This document shows positions 942-27,470 of a DNA stretch of 32,764 bases, in pieces. Position 1 is the stretch's first letter. The number at the start of each line of letters is the position of its first letter. The notes under the pieces are model-generated. The model saw only the letters and a program-made list of their open reading frames with translations, was not told the origin of the DNA and searched no databases. Source of the DNA: Prevotella sp. (GTDB taxonomy: Bacteria; Bacteroidota; Bacteroidia; Bacteroidales; Bacteroidaceae); assembly GCA_017474515.1 (NCBI GenBank), contig JAFVHN010000112.1, positions 1 through 32,764 of the forward strand, in the 5' to 3' direction. A program made the position numbers and the translations under genes.

Positions 942-1264
942 TACATCCGGCGAGATTCTTCATTTTCAAATTGAGAAATTTGCGAAACATGAGTTAGTGT
1001 TTGTTGTTTATGCGCCCCGTTATAGTGGCGGCGGACGCGACATGGCACGGTCAAACGACCGGCGGAAAAGAGGGACTTGGATTATCGGTTACAAAAGTAC
1101 GAAGATTTTTCTTTCAAAGCAAGTTTTCCCGCGTTTTTTTTTATTTGAAAGAGAAGGAATACCGAAGTTGGGTCGTGTGCTTTGTTTACAAAAGGAGAAT
1201 TGGTGTTTATGCGCTCCTGTATCGTGGCAGCCGCCTGCTTTGTCATTTTTCATTTTTCATTTAT

Positions 1265-1340
1265 CATTTAGCGCAGCGCTTTTCATTTGTCATTTAGCGT
1301 AGCACTTTTCATTTGGCGTAGCGCCTCACGCTCATTTTGT
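1265..1340 (+). repeat. Imperfect 26-base tandem repeats
   Basis: CATTTAGCGCAGCGCTTTTC (from 1265) recurs at 1291 as CATTTAGCGTAGCACTTTTC, each followed by ATTTG, and a third degenerate unit (GCGTAGCGCC...) runs from 1316. Each unit holds a small GC palindrome such as AGCGCAGCGCT. Non-coding. Confidence 0.6.
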
Positions 1341-1538
1341 CAAGTTTTTTCATGGTTTTTTGGTTATCGCAGGAGGTTTGACGGCAAATTTCGAGGAGAG
1401 ATTTGGCAAATTGAGGGGAGAGAATTGGCAAATCTCTGCCCGAAATTTGCCGTCAAAACCTGCCCCGTTTACAAACCGCTGAAAATCAATAATTTACAAA
1501 AACGGCGGAAAACGGCCCGTTTTGTCAAATATTTTTAC
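1336..1538 (-). repeat. Dispersed hairpin element, copy A
   Basis: First of three copies of the same element (others at 7424-7624 and 27223-27410). The core, read on the minus strand from 1501 to 1375, is 127 bases and aligns without gaps to the other two. Outer arms TTTGACGGCAAATTTCG (1377-1393) and its exact complement (1441-1457) enclose an inner hairpin built on AGAGATTTG/CAAATCTCT. TTTGTCAA occurs at both ends (1336-1343 and 1521-1528), exactly 185 bases apart, as in copy B. Confidence 0.75.
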
Positions 1539-1874
1539 CTGTTTATATACATGCCGCTATCTACCAAAATAAAGAACTCTGCTTCCGTATATTCTACATT
1601 TCTGACAATGAGTGTCACTTCGTGACAGAAATCTTAAAAATATAGTTGTGTGATTCGTGAAAATTTGATGGATTTCTCGCCGTTGGCGACTAAACACCAA
1701 AGTTTTGTGTATGAAAGCCATACATTGTAAGGGAATGAAACGCGGATTGCAGGGATTCTTTATTTCCAAGTTGCGAAATAAGCACTTTCTTACAAAGCAA
1801 GTATTTACGCGGTTTTTCAAATGGTCTCTATAGAAATAAGGAAACGAGATGGCGACGATTTAAAATAAAAAAAA

Positions 1875-5848: not shown

Positions 5849-7192
5849 TTATTTCCCCATTCTTCCTCTCATGCCTTTCATGGCGCCCATCATGTTTCCC
5901 ATGCCTCCGCCGGTCACCATTCTCATCATTTTTCTTGTCTGGTCAAACTGCTTGATGAAGCGGTTCACCTCCTGAATGTCGGTGCCTGAGCCTTTTGCAA
6001 TGCGGTTGCGGCGGCTTTTGTTCAGCAGGTCGGGGTTGGCCCGCTCCTTGGGAGTCATGCTCTGAATGATGGCCTCAATGCGCTTGAAGGCATCGTCGGG
6101 GATGTCGATGTCCTTCAGCTGTTTGCCTACGCCGGGAATCATTCCCGCCAGGTCTTTCAGGTTGCCCATCTTCTTGATTTGCTGAATCTGGCTGTAATAG
6201 TCGTTGAAGTCGAACTTGTTCTTGGCAATTTTCTTCTCCAGCTTCTTGGCTTCCTCTTCGTCGTAGAGCTGCTGTGCCCTTTCCACGAGGCTCACCACGT
6301 CGCCCATGCCGAGTATGCGGTCGGCCATTCGCGAGGGATGGAACACGTCGATGGCTTCCATTTTCTCGCCCGTTCCTATGAATTTGATGGGCTTGGTCAC
6401 CACGGTGCGAATGCTGAGTGCCGCACCGCCTCGTGTGTCGCCGTCGAGTTTGGTCAGCACCACGCCGTCGAAGTCGAGCCTGTCGTTGAATTCCTTGGCG
6501 GTGTTCACTGCATCCTGGCCCGTCATGGAGTCCACGACGAAGAGCGTTTCCTGCGGCTGAACGGCCTCCTTGAGCGAGGCAATCTCGTTCATCATTTCCT
6601 CGTCGATGGCCAGTCGGCCGGCGGTGTCAACAATCACCACGTCGATGCCCTTGGCCCGGGCTTCGCGAATGGCATTGTTGGCTATCTCCACCACGTTTTT
6701 GTTGCCGTCTTCGCTATATACGGGCACGCCGACACTCTCGGCCACCACTTTCAGCTGCTCGATGGCAGCGGGGCGATAGACGTCGCAGGCCACCAGCATG
6801 GGCTTCTTGTGCTGCTTGGTTTTCAGCATGTTGGCCAGCTTGCCCGAGAATGTGGTCTTACCCGAGCCTTGCAGTCCCGACATGAGGATGATGGCCGGCC
6901 GGCCCTCCACGTTCATCGGCACTGCCTCGCCGCCCATGAGCTCGGCCAGCTCGTCGTGAACAATCTTCACCATCAGCTGTCCGGGCTTGATGGCCGTGAG
7001 CACTTTCATGCCCATGGCTTTTTCTTTAACCTTGTCCGTGAACTGCTTGGCCACCTTGTAGTTAACGTCGGCATCGATAAGCGCACGACGCACGTCCTTT
7101 AACGTTTCGGCAACGTTAATTTCGGTAATTTTTCCCTCTCCTTTTAAGATCTTGAACGACCGTTCAAGTCTGTCGCTTAAATTCTCAAACAT
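5849..7192 (-). CDS. ffh: Signal recognition particle protein Ffh
   Basis: The 447-residue SRP54 homologue has an N domain, then the G domain with GLQGSGKTT (106-114), DVYRPAAIEQL, DTAGRLAIDEEM, TKLDGDTRGG and the closing GTGEKMEAIDVFHP, and a C-terminal M domain with the RNA-binding SRRNRIAKGSG segment and a Met-rich tail (MMRMVTGGGMGNMMGAMKG). With 4.5S RNA it binds signal sequences of nascent chains and docks to FtsY at the membrane. Full length. No SRP RNA gene was found nearby. Confidence 0.97.
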   Translation of the reverse strand: MFENLSDRLERSFKILKGEGKITEINVAETLKDVRRALIDADVNYKVAKQFTDKVKEKAMGMKVLTAIKPGQLMVKIVHDELAELMGGEAVPMNVEGRPAIILMSGLQGSGKTTFSGKLANMLKTKQHKKPMLVACDVYRPAAIEQLKVVAESVGVPVYSEDGNKNVVEIANNAIREARAKGIDVVIVDTAGRLAIDEEMMNEIASLKEAVQPQETLFVVDSMTGQDAVNTAKEFNDRLDFDGVVLTKLDGDTRGGAALSIRTVVTKPIKFIGTGEKMEAIDVFHPSRMADRILGMGDVVSLVERAQQLYDEEEAKKLEKKIAKNKFDFNDYYSQIQQIKKMGNLKDLAGMIPGVGKQLKDIDIPDDAFKRIEAIIQSMTPKERANPDLLNKSRRNRIAKGSGTDIQEVNRFIKQFDQTRKMMRMVTGGGMGNMMGAMKGMRGRMGK

Positions 7193-7244: not shown

Positions 7245-7423
7245 ATAAAAAAGGTGCACCACACCTAATTTGCACCTTCCTTTTAAACAATTTTAAACAA
7301 TAATCTTTCTTTGCTTGGGATTTTCTTATGTTTTGCGGTGCTGGCGCAGTGTTGCGATGGTATCGCAACAAACGTGACAAAGGGCTTGCGAGGGGGGGGG
7401 GTAACGAGGTTGGGAAATTTTAT

Positions 7424-7624
7424 GAAAAATCTTGACAAATTCAGCGAAATTTCATGGATTTTGTAAGTCGTTGACTTTCAGCAGGTTGAAAATACCGGTT
7501 GGTTTGACCGCATTTTTTGGGGAGAAATCTTGAAGATTTCACCTCTCAATCTTCAAGATTTCTCCTTGAGATTTGCGCCCAAACCCTTTCGGGTATTAAA
7601 AATTTTAAGAAAAATCTTGACAAA
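7424..7624 (+). repeat. Dispersed hairpin element, copy B
   Basis: The core at 7459-7585 is 127 bases and aligns gap-free with copies A and C. Its inner stem is perfect over 18 bases: GGAGAAATCTTGAAGATT (7521-7538) with its exact complement (7548-7565), loop of 9. The outer arms GGTTTGACCGCA (7501-7512) and TGCGCCCAAACC (7574-7585) pair imperfectly. GAAAAATCTTGACAAA flanks the core on both sides (7424-7439 and 7609-7624), 185 bases apart. Confidence 0.75.
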
Positions 7625-7641
7625 ATGCGAGCCGAAAATGG

Positions 7642-8565
7642 TCACTCGCGGTAGAACCATCCAATGAACTTATTGAGCCAGGAAATGGAAAAGCGGAACC
7701 AGCGGTAGGTGCTCACCTCCTTGCCGCCGAAACTGAGAATGAAGTCGCGGTAAGGATTGTGGCTGAAGGGCAATCCGGCATCCATGAACCTTATGTGCCG
7801 GTAGTGGCTCTGGTAGGCCTGCTCAATGGCGGCCCAAACGGTGGCCGTGTCGGGATGTAGGCGCGAATGGCTCTTTCGTTTCGATGCCAGGTACCACAGG
7901 TAAGCGTCTTCCTTGTCGTAAACACAGGCACATCCGCCGATGGTTCGCCCGCGATGGGTGGTGCGGAAGAGGCGGGCATGGCGGCTTGCCAACAATTCGG
8001 CAAACAGCCGTTCGGAGGGAAGGTATCGGCGCACCTTCAGGGAGAAGAACTGGCGCAGCATGCGGTGGAAGTCGCGAAACTCGCTGAAATCCTCCACTTC
8101 ATGCACTTCCACGCCGGCCTCGCCGATGGCTTTTATCCGCTCAAGCATTTTCTCCGAGAGCCGCTCGCGAGGGGGCTTCGAGTGGAGGCTGTTGTGAACC
8201 TCCATCCAATGGACGGGGAAATAGCCGTTTTGGCGGAAAAGGCGGTAGCCGAACATTTTCTGGGTGAGGTTGCTGAACTCGATGTACATGCACATCTTGC
8301 GCTGGAACTTGCGGGTGATGGCATCGAGCATCAGGTTGAAAAGATGTTCACGGTCTTCGCCGGCGGCATATTCGCCCTCGCTGTAAACGCGGCCTTGCGT
8401 GAAAAGATAAGGCGGAATGAGCGAACCGCGACGGCGAAGGGAGGCCAGCAGATGAGCCACCACGCGCGGGCCGCGGCGCACGACAACCATGAACGGCGTT
8501 TCGCCACGCGTCTTTTCGAGTATCTTGAAATACTCGGTGCTGTGGTAAAAAAGCTGGCAGTCCAT
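7642..8565 (-). CDS. FemAB/GNAT-like acyltransferase-fold protein
   Basis: With the ATG at 8565 the product is 307 residues (MDCQLFYHSTEYFKILEKT...). The C-terminal half resembles the acetyltransferase fold of FemAB/BioF2-like proteins: ARLFRTTHRGRTIGGCACVY followed by AYLWYLASKRK and then a conserved end, HIRFMDAGLPFSHNPYRDFILSFGG split over two strands. Such proteins transfer an amino acid or acyl group; the substrate here is unknown. No signal peptide or membrane span. The frame stays open upstream to a TTG at 8655 and a GTG at 8619, but a well-formed promoter (8656-8625) overlaps that part, so the ATG is preferred. A minor risk is a leaderless GTG start. Monocistronic by context. Confidence 0.65.
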   Translation of the reverse strand: MDCQLFYHSTEYFKILEKTRGETPFMVVVRRGPRVVAHLLASLRRRGSLIPPYLFTQGRVYSEGEYAAGEDREHLFNLMLDAITRKFQRKMCMYIEFSNLTQKMFGYRLFRQNGYFPVHWMEVHNSLHSKPPRERLSEKMLERIKAIGEAGVEVHEVEDFSEFRDFHRMLRQFFSLKVRRYLPSERLFAELLASRHARLFRTTHRGRTIGGCACVYDKEDAYLWYLASKRKSHSRLHPDTATVWAAIEQAYQSHYRHIRFMDAGLPFSHNPYRDFILSFGGKEVSTYRWFRFSISWLNKFIGWFYRE

Positions 8566-8624
8566 GGCCGGCAATCCCCCACTCTGCTCGATGACCTCGG
8601 TCGATAGCTGTTCGTTCACGAAGG

Positions 8625-8656
8625 CAAAGATAAAGGAATTTGTGCAGAGTGCCAAA
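8625..8656 (-). promoter_or_regulatory. Promoter of the FemAB-like gene
   Basis: Minus-strand TTTG (8656-8653), 20 bases, then TATCTTTG (8632-8625): both boxes match the Bacteroidetes consensus. Transcription would begin near 8619, giving a leader of roughly 54 bases before the ATG at 8565. Confidence 0.7.
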
Positions 8657-10480: not shown

Positions 10481-10590
10481 AAAGTGTAAAGTAAAAAGTG
10501 TAAAGTGAAAAGTGTAAAGTAAAAAGTGTAAAGTGAAAAATGAAAAGTGAAAAATGAAAAGTGAAAAATGAAAAGTGAAAAATGAAGAGT
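10481..10590 (+). repeat. Low-complexity AAAGTGTAAAGT / GAAAAATGAAAAGT tract
   Basis: About 110 bases made of short purine-rich units: AAAAGTGTAAAGT repeated, passing into GAAAAATGAAAAGT repeats. Non-coding; probably grown by slippage. Its end is the left arm of the adjoining inverted repeat. Confidence 0.75.
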
Positions 10591-27113: not shown

Positions 27114-27222
27114 CATGCTCCCCGAAACTCTGTCGGTAAAACCGGTAAAATCGCATTGATGGACATGACCGAAACCATATAAAAAGGGCCTTGAAAAAGG
27201 TCCGAAAAACGGTAAAAAATAT

Positions 27223-27410
27223 TTACAAAACCGACGAATTTTTGCCCTTTTTGTAACTAACTGATTATCAAGGGTTTTAAAAACGCGCATGGTTTGACCG
27301 CAATTTTCATCGAGAGAATTGGCAAATCTCTCCCCTCAAATTGGCAAATCTCTCCTTGAAATTTGCGGTCAGACACAAAAAACATGGATATTTTTTTGAA
27401 AAATTTTTAC
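27223..27410 (+). repeat. Dispersed hairpin element, copy C
   Basis: The 127-base core (27249-27375) aligns gap-free to copies A and B. Outer arms GGTTTGACCGCAA (27291-27303) and TTTGCGGTC (27362-27370) pair; inside, AATTGGCAAATCTCTCC occurs twice (27317-27333 and 27339-27355). Copy A shares GAGAGAATTGGCAAATCTCT (27312-27331). The flanking TTTAC-type repeats are 184 bases apart. Confidence 0.75.
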
Positions 27411-27470
27411 ATTTTCATGGACAAAAACAAAGTCCCCCAACCTGTCATAAAATAAAAAATCGTTAATCTT

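Follow-up and report, generated by a model that had tools for sequence, protein, structure and literature searches.

A family of intergenic DNA elements of near-fixed length, kept apart along Prevotella chromosomes, as putative chromosome-organizing sites

The intergenic element described here occurs three times in the window, the whole 32,764-nucleotide stretch of Prevotella sp. DNA that we analyzed (contig JAFVHN010000112.1, assembly GCA_017474515.1), and the three copies are probably members of an intergenic family of a few hundred DNA elements of near-fixed length. The distance kept between elements suggests a part in organizing or marking the chromosome rather than in making RNA. We propose that the elements are chromosome-organizing nucleoprotein sites, a putative role that we hold tentatively and to which we give slightly less than an even chance.

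Results

Three copies of a composite element in the window

A first-pass annotation had described three related 127-base cores, at 1501-1375 (minus strand), 7459-7585 (plus) and 27249-27375 (plus), with flanking repeats at a constant distance. Both observations are confirmed. The cores align without a gap over 127 bases, with 99/127, 87/127 and 85/127 identities, and the flanking repeats, TTGACAAA / TTTACAAA, are direct repeats spaced about 185 bp apart. Among the eight best ungapped places for core 2, the top place outside the three elements reaches 54 identities. The corresponding eight places for cores 1 and 3 are without exception within elements, the eighth at 57 and 56 identities, so no outside place exceeds these values. 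The conserved unit is larger than the core, extending from direct repeat to direct repeat over mostly 207-214 bp, and the core itself contains two dyads, one of 33 bp and an 85-bp array with a 22-bp period. The order within an element is direct repeat, 33-bp dyad, 85-bp palindromic array, spacer, direct repeat.

Copy 1 (1334-1544, minus strand; intergenic; profile match 5-215 of 216, 198.5 bits) comprises the left direct repeat GTAAAAATATTTGACAAA at 1521-1538, the 33-bp dyad at 1468-1500, a palindromic array of 22-bp units with outer arms GGTTTTGACGGCAAATTTC / GAAATTTGCCGTCAAACC at 1375-1460, and the right direct repeat TGAAAAAACTTGACAAA at 1336-1352, all read on the minus strand. Copy 2 (7414-7626, plus; profile match 3-215 of 216, 161.5 bits) is placed between ORFs 5849-7192 and 7642-8655, and on the same strand carries the left direct repeat TGAAAAATCTTGACAAA at 7423-7439, a dyad with a degenerate right end at 7460-7492, an array with inner units of AATCTTCAAGATT type at 7501-7585, and the right direct repeat AGAAAAATCTTGACAAA at 7608-7624. 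Copy 3 (27205-27411, plus; profile match 4-211 of 216, 158.4 bits) has, again on the plus strand, its left direct repeat TAAAAAATATTTACAAA at 27213-27229, the dyad at 27250-27282, the array at 27291-27374, and a degenerate right direct repeat, TGAAAAATTTTTACATT, at 27397-27413. Direct repeats were delimited from the sequence and conserved alignment columns, as were the dyads of copies 2 and 3; that of copy 1 was assigned from the sequence and the dyad class in the copy alignment. Arrays were placed by their period together with the alignment (copies 1 and 3) or the sequence (copy 2). Two simple repeats were also noted in the window: a run of ten G directly upstream of copy 2 (7392-7401), a possible slippage tract, and a short tandem repeat between ORFs at 10538-10577, in which one 12-base string occurs three times at 14-bp spacing.

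Copy number and constancy of form

The assembly of the window's genome comprises 3.51 Mb in 118 contigs. Genome-wide, the 20-base pattern GRRATTTGSMRAATCTCTCC with up to three mismatches occurs at 124 + 127 places, compared with 0 + 1 for a control pattern. A sequence-only model (A1/R1), built from 42 copies, gave at least 150 matches in its own genome; all 150 listed span model positions 3-8 to 211-215, and the weakest among them has an E value of 3.2e-40. Our census covered 411,827 bases (contigs C84 and C66, the first 120 kb of C94, and the window) and contained 26 copies, every one of them full length (201-214 bp), with no fragment at E 0.01 in these 412 kb; from this density we estimate about 220 copies per genome. 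The reversed sequence of three census contigs gave 0 matches. At E values up to 1, a 72-copy profile added three census matches of 6 to 13 bits, one of which, at 12.6 bits, abuts the terminus of C84 and probably represents a copy truncated there. Outside the elements, the census stretch had no dyad even when two mismatches were allowed. The annotation would have been refuted by a lack of further copies with the same spacing; there are many, and on this point it is not refuted.

Pairwise identity averages 67.7% over 72 distinct copies (5th-95th percentile 56-78%, maximum 92.6%), yet length is nearly fixed: relative to the consensus columns, 40 copies have no indel position, 28 have one and 2 have two, with two outliers at 10 and 24. 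Near-random columns, such as those of the spacer between array and right repeat, hold their length, and across the 72 copies the spacers are nearly saturated with substitutions with their length retained. We read this as fewer indels and fragments than the neutral decay of old mobile elements would be expected to leave. The earlier suggestion of selection on form, drawn from a constant length despite diverged sequence, is thus upheld by the 26/26 full-length census copies and the 68/72 copies with at most one indel position. With genes predicted by a simple gene caller, any overlap with a gene stays within 60 bp for all 25 classified copies, and one touches a gene by 36 bp.

A symmetric dyad and a 22-bp array

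The 33-bp dyad reads TTTGYAA-N5-TGA-N3-TCA-N5-TTRCAAA and is present within two mismatches in 56 of the 72 copies; the direct repeat at the right end, GAAAAATCTTGACAAAA, is nearly invariant. The array has a period of 22 bp, with autocorrelation of 0.41 at lag 22 and 0.34 at lag 44 against a median of 0.25. Its inner ~44 bp fit better in one orientation in 44/72 copies and in the other in 28/72. This inner part (window 1394-1438 and equivalents) resembles a segment inverting between its arms. Outside the conserved unit, GGRTAR precedes 49/72 copies and GCTAAATGA follows closely after 22/72 (for example in the right flank of copy 1, window 1237-1330); these flanks look like optional leader and tail modules.

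The dyad and its architecture recur in relatives

Under strict filters, model R1 found no close relative of the element in 298 other sampled genomes of the genus; weak matches occurred in 5/298, the best with an E value of 1e-7, and an exact 25-mer of the outer stem had no match in named genomes. The dyad itself is more widely distributed. With at most one mismatch it is present in 19/99 other genomes and its reversed pattern in 0; a control pattern allowing two mismatches gave 1 + 1 matches in one of 10 genomes. Named genomes hold at least 96 dyad loci, including P. falsenii, P. corporis, P. vespertina, P. lacticifex and Xylanibacter rarus; among those listed, 45 are from Prevotellaceae and 91 from Bacteroidota, and single dyads in other families may be chance occurrences. 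The arrays beside the dyad differ greatly in sequence (GTCTTATAAGAGAATT in P. falsenii, AAAAAGTACGTACTTTTT in P. corporis). The same 22-bp period stands beside the dyad in the window's genome and in genomes G016, G004 and G023, and 90 pooled flanks of named Prevotellaceae loci have their top lags at 44 and 22. No peak at 22 bp is seen when flanks from Microscillaceae, Saprospiraceae or unplaced Bacteroidales are pooled; with Microscillaceae dyads lacking this period, the architecture claim is limited to Prevotellaceae. The Microscillaceae bin Prado074 accounts for 17 of the at least 96 dyad loci listed (L175, L177, L181, L193, L199, L203, L204 and others), probably a separate repeat family that shares the dyad.

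Large families were found in two of these relatives. In G016 (closed, 3.17 Mb), seven dyad loci could be aligned across 264 columns with no internal gap, and a model built from them gave at least 151 matches there. Of the 150 listed, 123 have a length of 240 bp or more; 62 on the plus and 76 on the minus strand among 138 places listed indicate no clear bias. A G004 model likewise gave at least 151 matches, which are shorter and more variable and include opposite-strand matches of the palindromic array, with 139 distinct places among the matches listed. At least three genomes of the genus therefore carry large element families of their own. Elements in a G016 census were long in 26/36 cases (222-281 bp) and partial in 10/36 (76-168 bp), so strict length constancy and the absence of fragments are best seen in the window's genome. 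For orthologous sites, we compared 116 proteins flanking 59 elements of the window's genome with 149 dyad-adjacent and 264 non-adjacent proteins of relatives; the comparison showed no positional conservation with the window's genome. The sole strong recurrent flank match, rpsA, was rejected as it concerns a different intergenic region, in two species that are each present twice.

Elements are over-dispersed along the chromosome

Spacing was compared with simulations in which the actual gaps between genes received elements in proportion to gap length, taken once the elements themselves had been removed. Distance cut-offs were picked after seeing the data. Elements are over-dispersed in the sampled stretches of all three genomes tested. 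None of 22 intervals in the window's genome is under 4.85 kb, where 5.7 are expected (P 0.0004, cut-off post hoc), and the coefficient of variation (CV) is 0.62 versus 0.83 simulated (P 0.044); among the matches listed genome-wide, 1 of 79 within-contig intervals is below 5.4 kb. The first 400 kb of G016 contain 36 elements at a median interval of 8.4 kb, with 1/35 intervals under 4.9 kb against about 9.9 expected. Intervals of 5-13 kb make up 29/35, against about 41% expected, and no simulation of 5,000 was as high. The CV over all 35 G016 intervals is 0.67 versus 0.85 (P 0.06). Outside two mobile islands, 33 intervals have a mean of 8.75 kb, an SD of 2.53 and a CV of 0.29, whereas the lowest CV among 10,000 simulations was 0.379 and their mean 0.78; the strong observed value depends on the post hoc exclusion of the islands. 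G004 has 61 elements in 352 kb, giving 59 intervals with a median of 5.1 kb and a CV of 0.56 versus 0.80 (P 0.002). Avoidance there is clear only below 2 kb (3 intervals versus 11.1 expected, P 0.0007; under 4 kb, 21 versus 24.7, P 0.12), and among the matches listed no interval is under 1.6 kb while the number at 2-4 kb is ordinary.

The longest intervals differ in content between genomes. Two long gaps in the G016 census, of 27 and 43 kb, both contain mobile DNA, as judged from 10 proteins scanned in each. One has Mu-like prophage genes (portal, MuB, protease), and the other integrases, a relaxase, VapE, type I restriction and Fic/BRO genes. A Mu-like prophage was noted at 117-160 kb of G016 (L320-L321). 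The window's genome has six element-free stretches of 27-33 kb, in which we scanned 10 proteins in three, 8 in one, 2 in C66 51-82 kb and 0 in C84 53-80 kb. Two hold mainly ordinary chromosomal genes, one holds ordinary genes with a type II restriction-modification pair and a BspA-like gene, and one is a polysaccharide locus. The ordinary genes in such stretches indicate that the lattice is incomplete in this genome. A rule that elements are absent from foreign DNA was therefore set aside: it fits both long G016 gaps but not most of the long gaps sampled in the window's genome.

Discussion

A putative role in chromosome organization

We propose that the element is a cis-acting DNA site, near-fixed in length, that would carry a putative multi-protein complex. 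One symmetric putative protein would occupy the conserved 33-bp dyad, and other putative proteins the 22-bp array, which corresponds to two helical turns, together with the flanking TTGAC direct repeats; length would then be fixed through helical phasing. Hundreds of such sites, placed at a minimum and roughly even distance, would split the chromosome into stretches of about 5-12 kb and could act as anchors or insulators of supercoiled loops, or in an equivalent chromosome-wide bookkeeping. A near-fixed composite site with a symmetric anchor and a two-turn array, kept apart in hundreds of copies, is as expected of loop-partitioning anchors. Median spacing that varies by species, at about 5, 8 and 12 kb, counts against the organizing-site reading. 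The scale of the elements is near that of the supercoiled domains of E. coli, which number 400-500 according to PMC3820752.

A broader form of this proposal seems to us arguable, although we lean somewhat against it. The elements may be genus-wide, quasi-periodic architectural sites, in which a conserved dyad for a conserved putative protein is joined to a helically phased 22-bp array with species turnover, recurring at intervals of 5-12 kb along resident DNA and lacking in newly acquired DNA. They would form a chromosome ruler or loop-anchor lattice, of which PINSR, a repeat of P. intermedia, would be one species dialect.

The first-pass annotation had listed a small non-autonomous element, a structured RNA and a nucleoid or recombination site as possible natures; the last is the option that the spacing data favor, and the first two fare less well. 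A structured RNA, or a REP-like transcription terminator or processing signal at operon borders, would account for the intergenic location and for the strong hairpins predicted for the three cores (-42 to -52 kcal/mol), and 42 copies do contain a small excess of covariation: 86.6% of cells are paired versus 85.4% in shuffled alignments and the covariation score is 0.133 versus 0.111 (0/500 shuffles as high for either), with 17 pairs changed on both sides versus 12.4 (3/500 shuffles). Across 72 copies, however, covariation does not exceed what column composition predicts. Watson-Crick cells number 1751/2220 in the outer stem versus 1708 expected and 740/1296 in the dyad versus 740.3, with one stem pair coupled (columns 98/166, 46 versus 37.1). 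G.T mispairs in the stem (122) hardly exceed A.C (110; expected 131.8 and 117.1), and dyad mispairs are as expected (G.T 202 and A.C 78, versus 194.3 and 71.9). Such weak-at-most covariation indicates that the arms are maintained mainly as sequence boxes. Copies between tandem genes are 5 sense and 8 antisense, and this mixed orientation, taken with the covariation, argues for a DNA site rather than an RNA. Also against an RNA, 10 of 25 copies in the window's genome lie between divergent genes (5.4 expected by gap length, P 0.03), an excess that would fit regulation, and so counts against the organizing-site reading as well, and that is missing in G016 (4/36 elements). Nor are terminators expected at an even spacing of 5-12 kb, and no Rfam family matched within the window at gathering scores. 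We therefore consider an RNA or terminator highly improbable.

We judge it unlikely that the element is a small, non-autonomous one mobilized in trans by a putative recombinase or transposase with target-site immunity. Target immunity would account for the minimum distance between copies, and a need for intact ends and binding sites for the fixed length; mobility also agrees with the many copies, their presence in both orientations, the direct repeat at either end, and species-specific families that must have spread within each lineage. The dyad can be read as 13-7-13, which we take to resemble a tyrosine-recombinase core. Against this, the terminal repeats are direct and not inverted, near-identical copies are absent among the 72, and fragments are absent among the 26 census copies. 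Solitary direct repeats number 0 outside elements in 412 kb, compared with 31 strict matches inside, the exact dyad occurs in 13 stretches of 2.9 million viral contigs, and the two mobile islands examined in G016 hold no element. The terminal inverted repeats in common with an autonomous element that mark a MITE were not found, the ends being direct repeats (the genome-wide partner search was for PF01797). A RAYT-driven REP was also rejected: the one Y1_Tnp gene genome-wide (PF01797; G000:C24:23184-23495) has no element in its 3.3-kb locus. ORFs 831-1292 and 1885-2100, which flank this gene (L049), contain nearly the same 25-residue string in translation, so that the Y1 gene is probably flanked by copies of its own repeat, unrelated to the element. 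Distinctly unlikely, in our estimate, is a species-specific self mark by which a DNA-uptake, recombination or defense system would tell own from foreign DNA, on a principle like that of uptake sequences or Chi. A constant dyad with a species-specific array, regular spacing and the mobile DNA in both long G016 census gaps would suit such a mark, and the available part of PMC1939737 remarks on the even spacing of uptake sequences. The size of the site (about 210-260 bp), the 27-33 kb stretches of ordinary genes without an element in the window's genome, and the lack of any uptake or defense gene tied to the element speak against a self mark.

Relation to known repeats

A match to a described repeat was the annotation's other refuting condition. 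The nearest described repeat is PINSR, which is the same kind of thing as judged here from its description. PINSR is 188 bp long, has 177 and 184 copies with about three quarters of loci common to two strains, lacks terminal inverted repeats and has no known function; it is intergenic, was judged non-coding, and is lineage-specific and absent from most strain-specific regions (PMC4755523). The element is likewise intergenic, non-coding and without terminal inverted repeats, with an estimated 220 or so copies, inside the range of some 150-250 taken for the comparison. P. falsenii is PINSR-positive by PCR (PMC4755523), and in it we find that palindromic units follow the dyad at intervals of exactly 22 bp. 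R1 has one weak match in P. falsenii genome G017 (E 5.4e-5), where the array differs; 101/101 sampled 30-mers are identical between G017 and the named P. falsenii locus. Section 3.4 of the PINSR paper mentions no dyad, 22-bp period or even spacing (PMC4755523), and the over-dispersed spacing of elements in all three genomes tested is new. Our literature search, with most subscription journals outside its coverage, found PINSR in Prevotella in PMC4755523 alone and found nothing that links Prevotella intergenic repeats with nucleoid or chromosome organization.

Other Bacteroidales carry intergenic elements with internal repeat arrays. As far as the available part of PMC4596501 describes them, these include BrickBuilt of Porphyromonas gingivalis (19 elements of 84-991 nt with an array of 23-nt direct repeats and IS5-like terminal inverted repeats) and PgRS/MITE464 (arrays of 41-nt direct repeats). 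Unlike BrickBuilt (PMC4596501), with its variable length and inverted ends, the element has a near-fixed length and direct-repeat ends. DNA uptake sequences, according to the available part of PMC1939737, are short, occur in 1471 and 1965 copies, and are spaced with significant evenness, yet less evenly than compaction sites should be. They share with the element its species specificity, very many copies and even spacing; unlike these short sequences, the element is a composite site of 210-260 bp.

The distance kept between elements and their common anatomy also bear on how such repeats are understood. Lineage-specific intergenic repeats like PINSR have so far been catalogued without a function, and a common anatomy of dyad and 22-bp array, together with a spacing rule, would unite isolated repeats as one system with a testable role. 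Fixed, loop-scale sequence sites that mark a bacterial chromosome would be a surprising addition to nucleoid organization. Since the array changes in concert from one species to the next, one may ask what makes a site found chromosome-wide alter its sequence. The elements might also help to tell resident from acquired DNA in a major genus of gut and mouth, a rule so far seen in one census.

Many intergenic palindromic repeats are known from enterobacteria as REP/BIME and ERIC, and BIMEs have been linked to gyrase. The element differs from these in its unit size of 210 bp, its direct repeats, a distinct 33-bp dyad, the 22-bp period and the lack of a linked RAYT gene. The dyad also occurs singly, with no evident 22-bp array, upstream of a small lipoprotein gene in apparently three species: at L139/L236 (G028, identical in sequence to UBA4330), at L143/L185 (G068, identical to RGIG7809) and at L233 (P. 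lacticifex). The next gene at L139/L236 and L143/L185 is rpsA. Judged from sequence, these loci suggest that the dyad may be able to work alone near a promoter.
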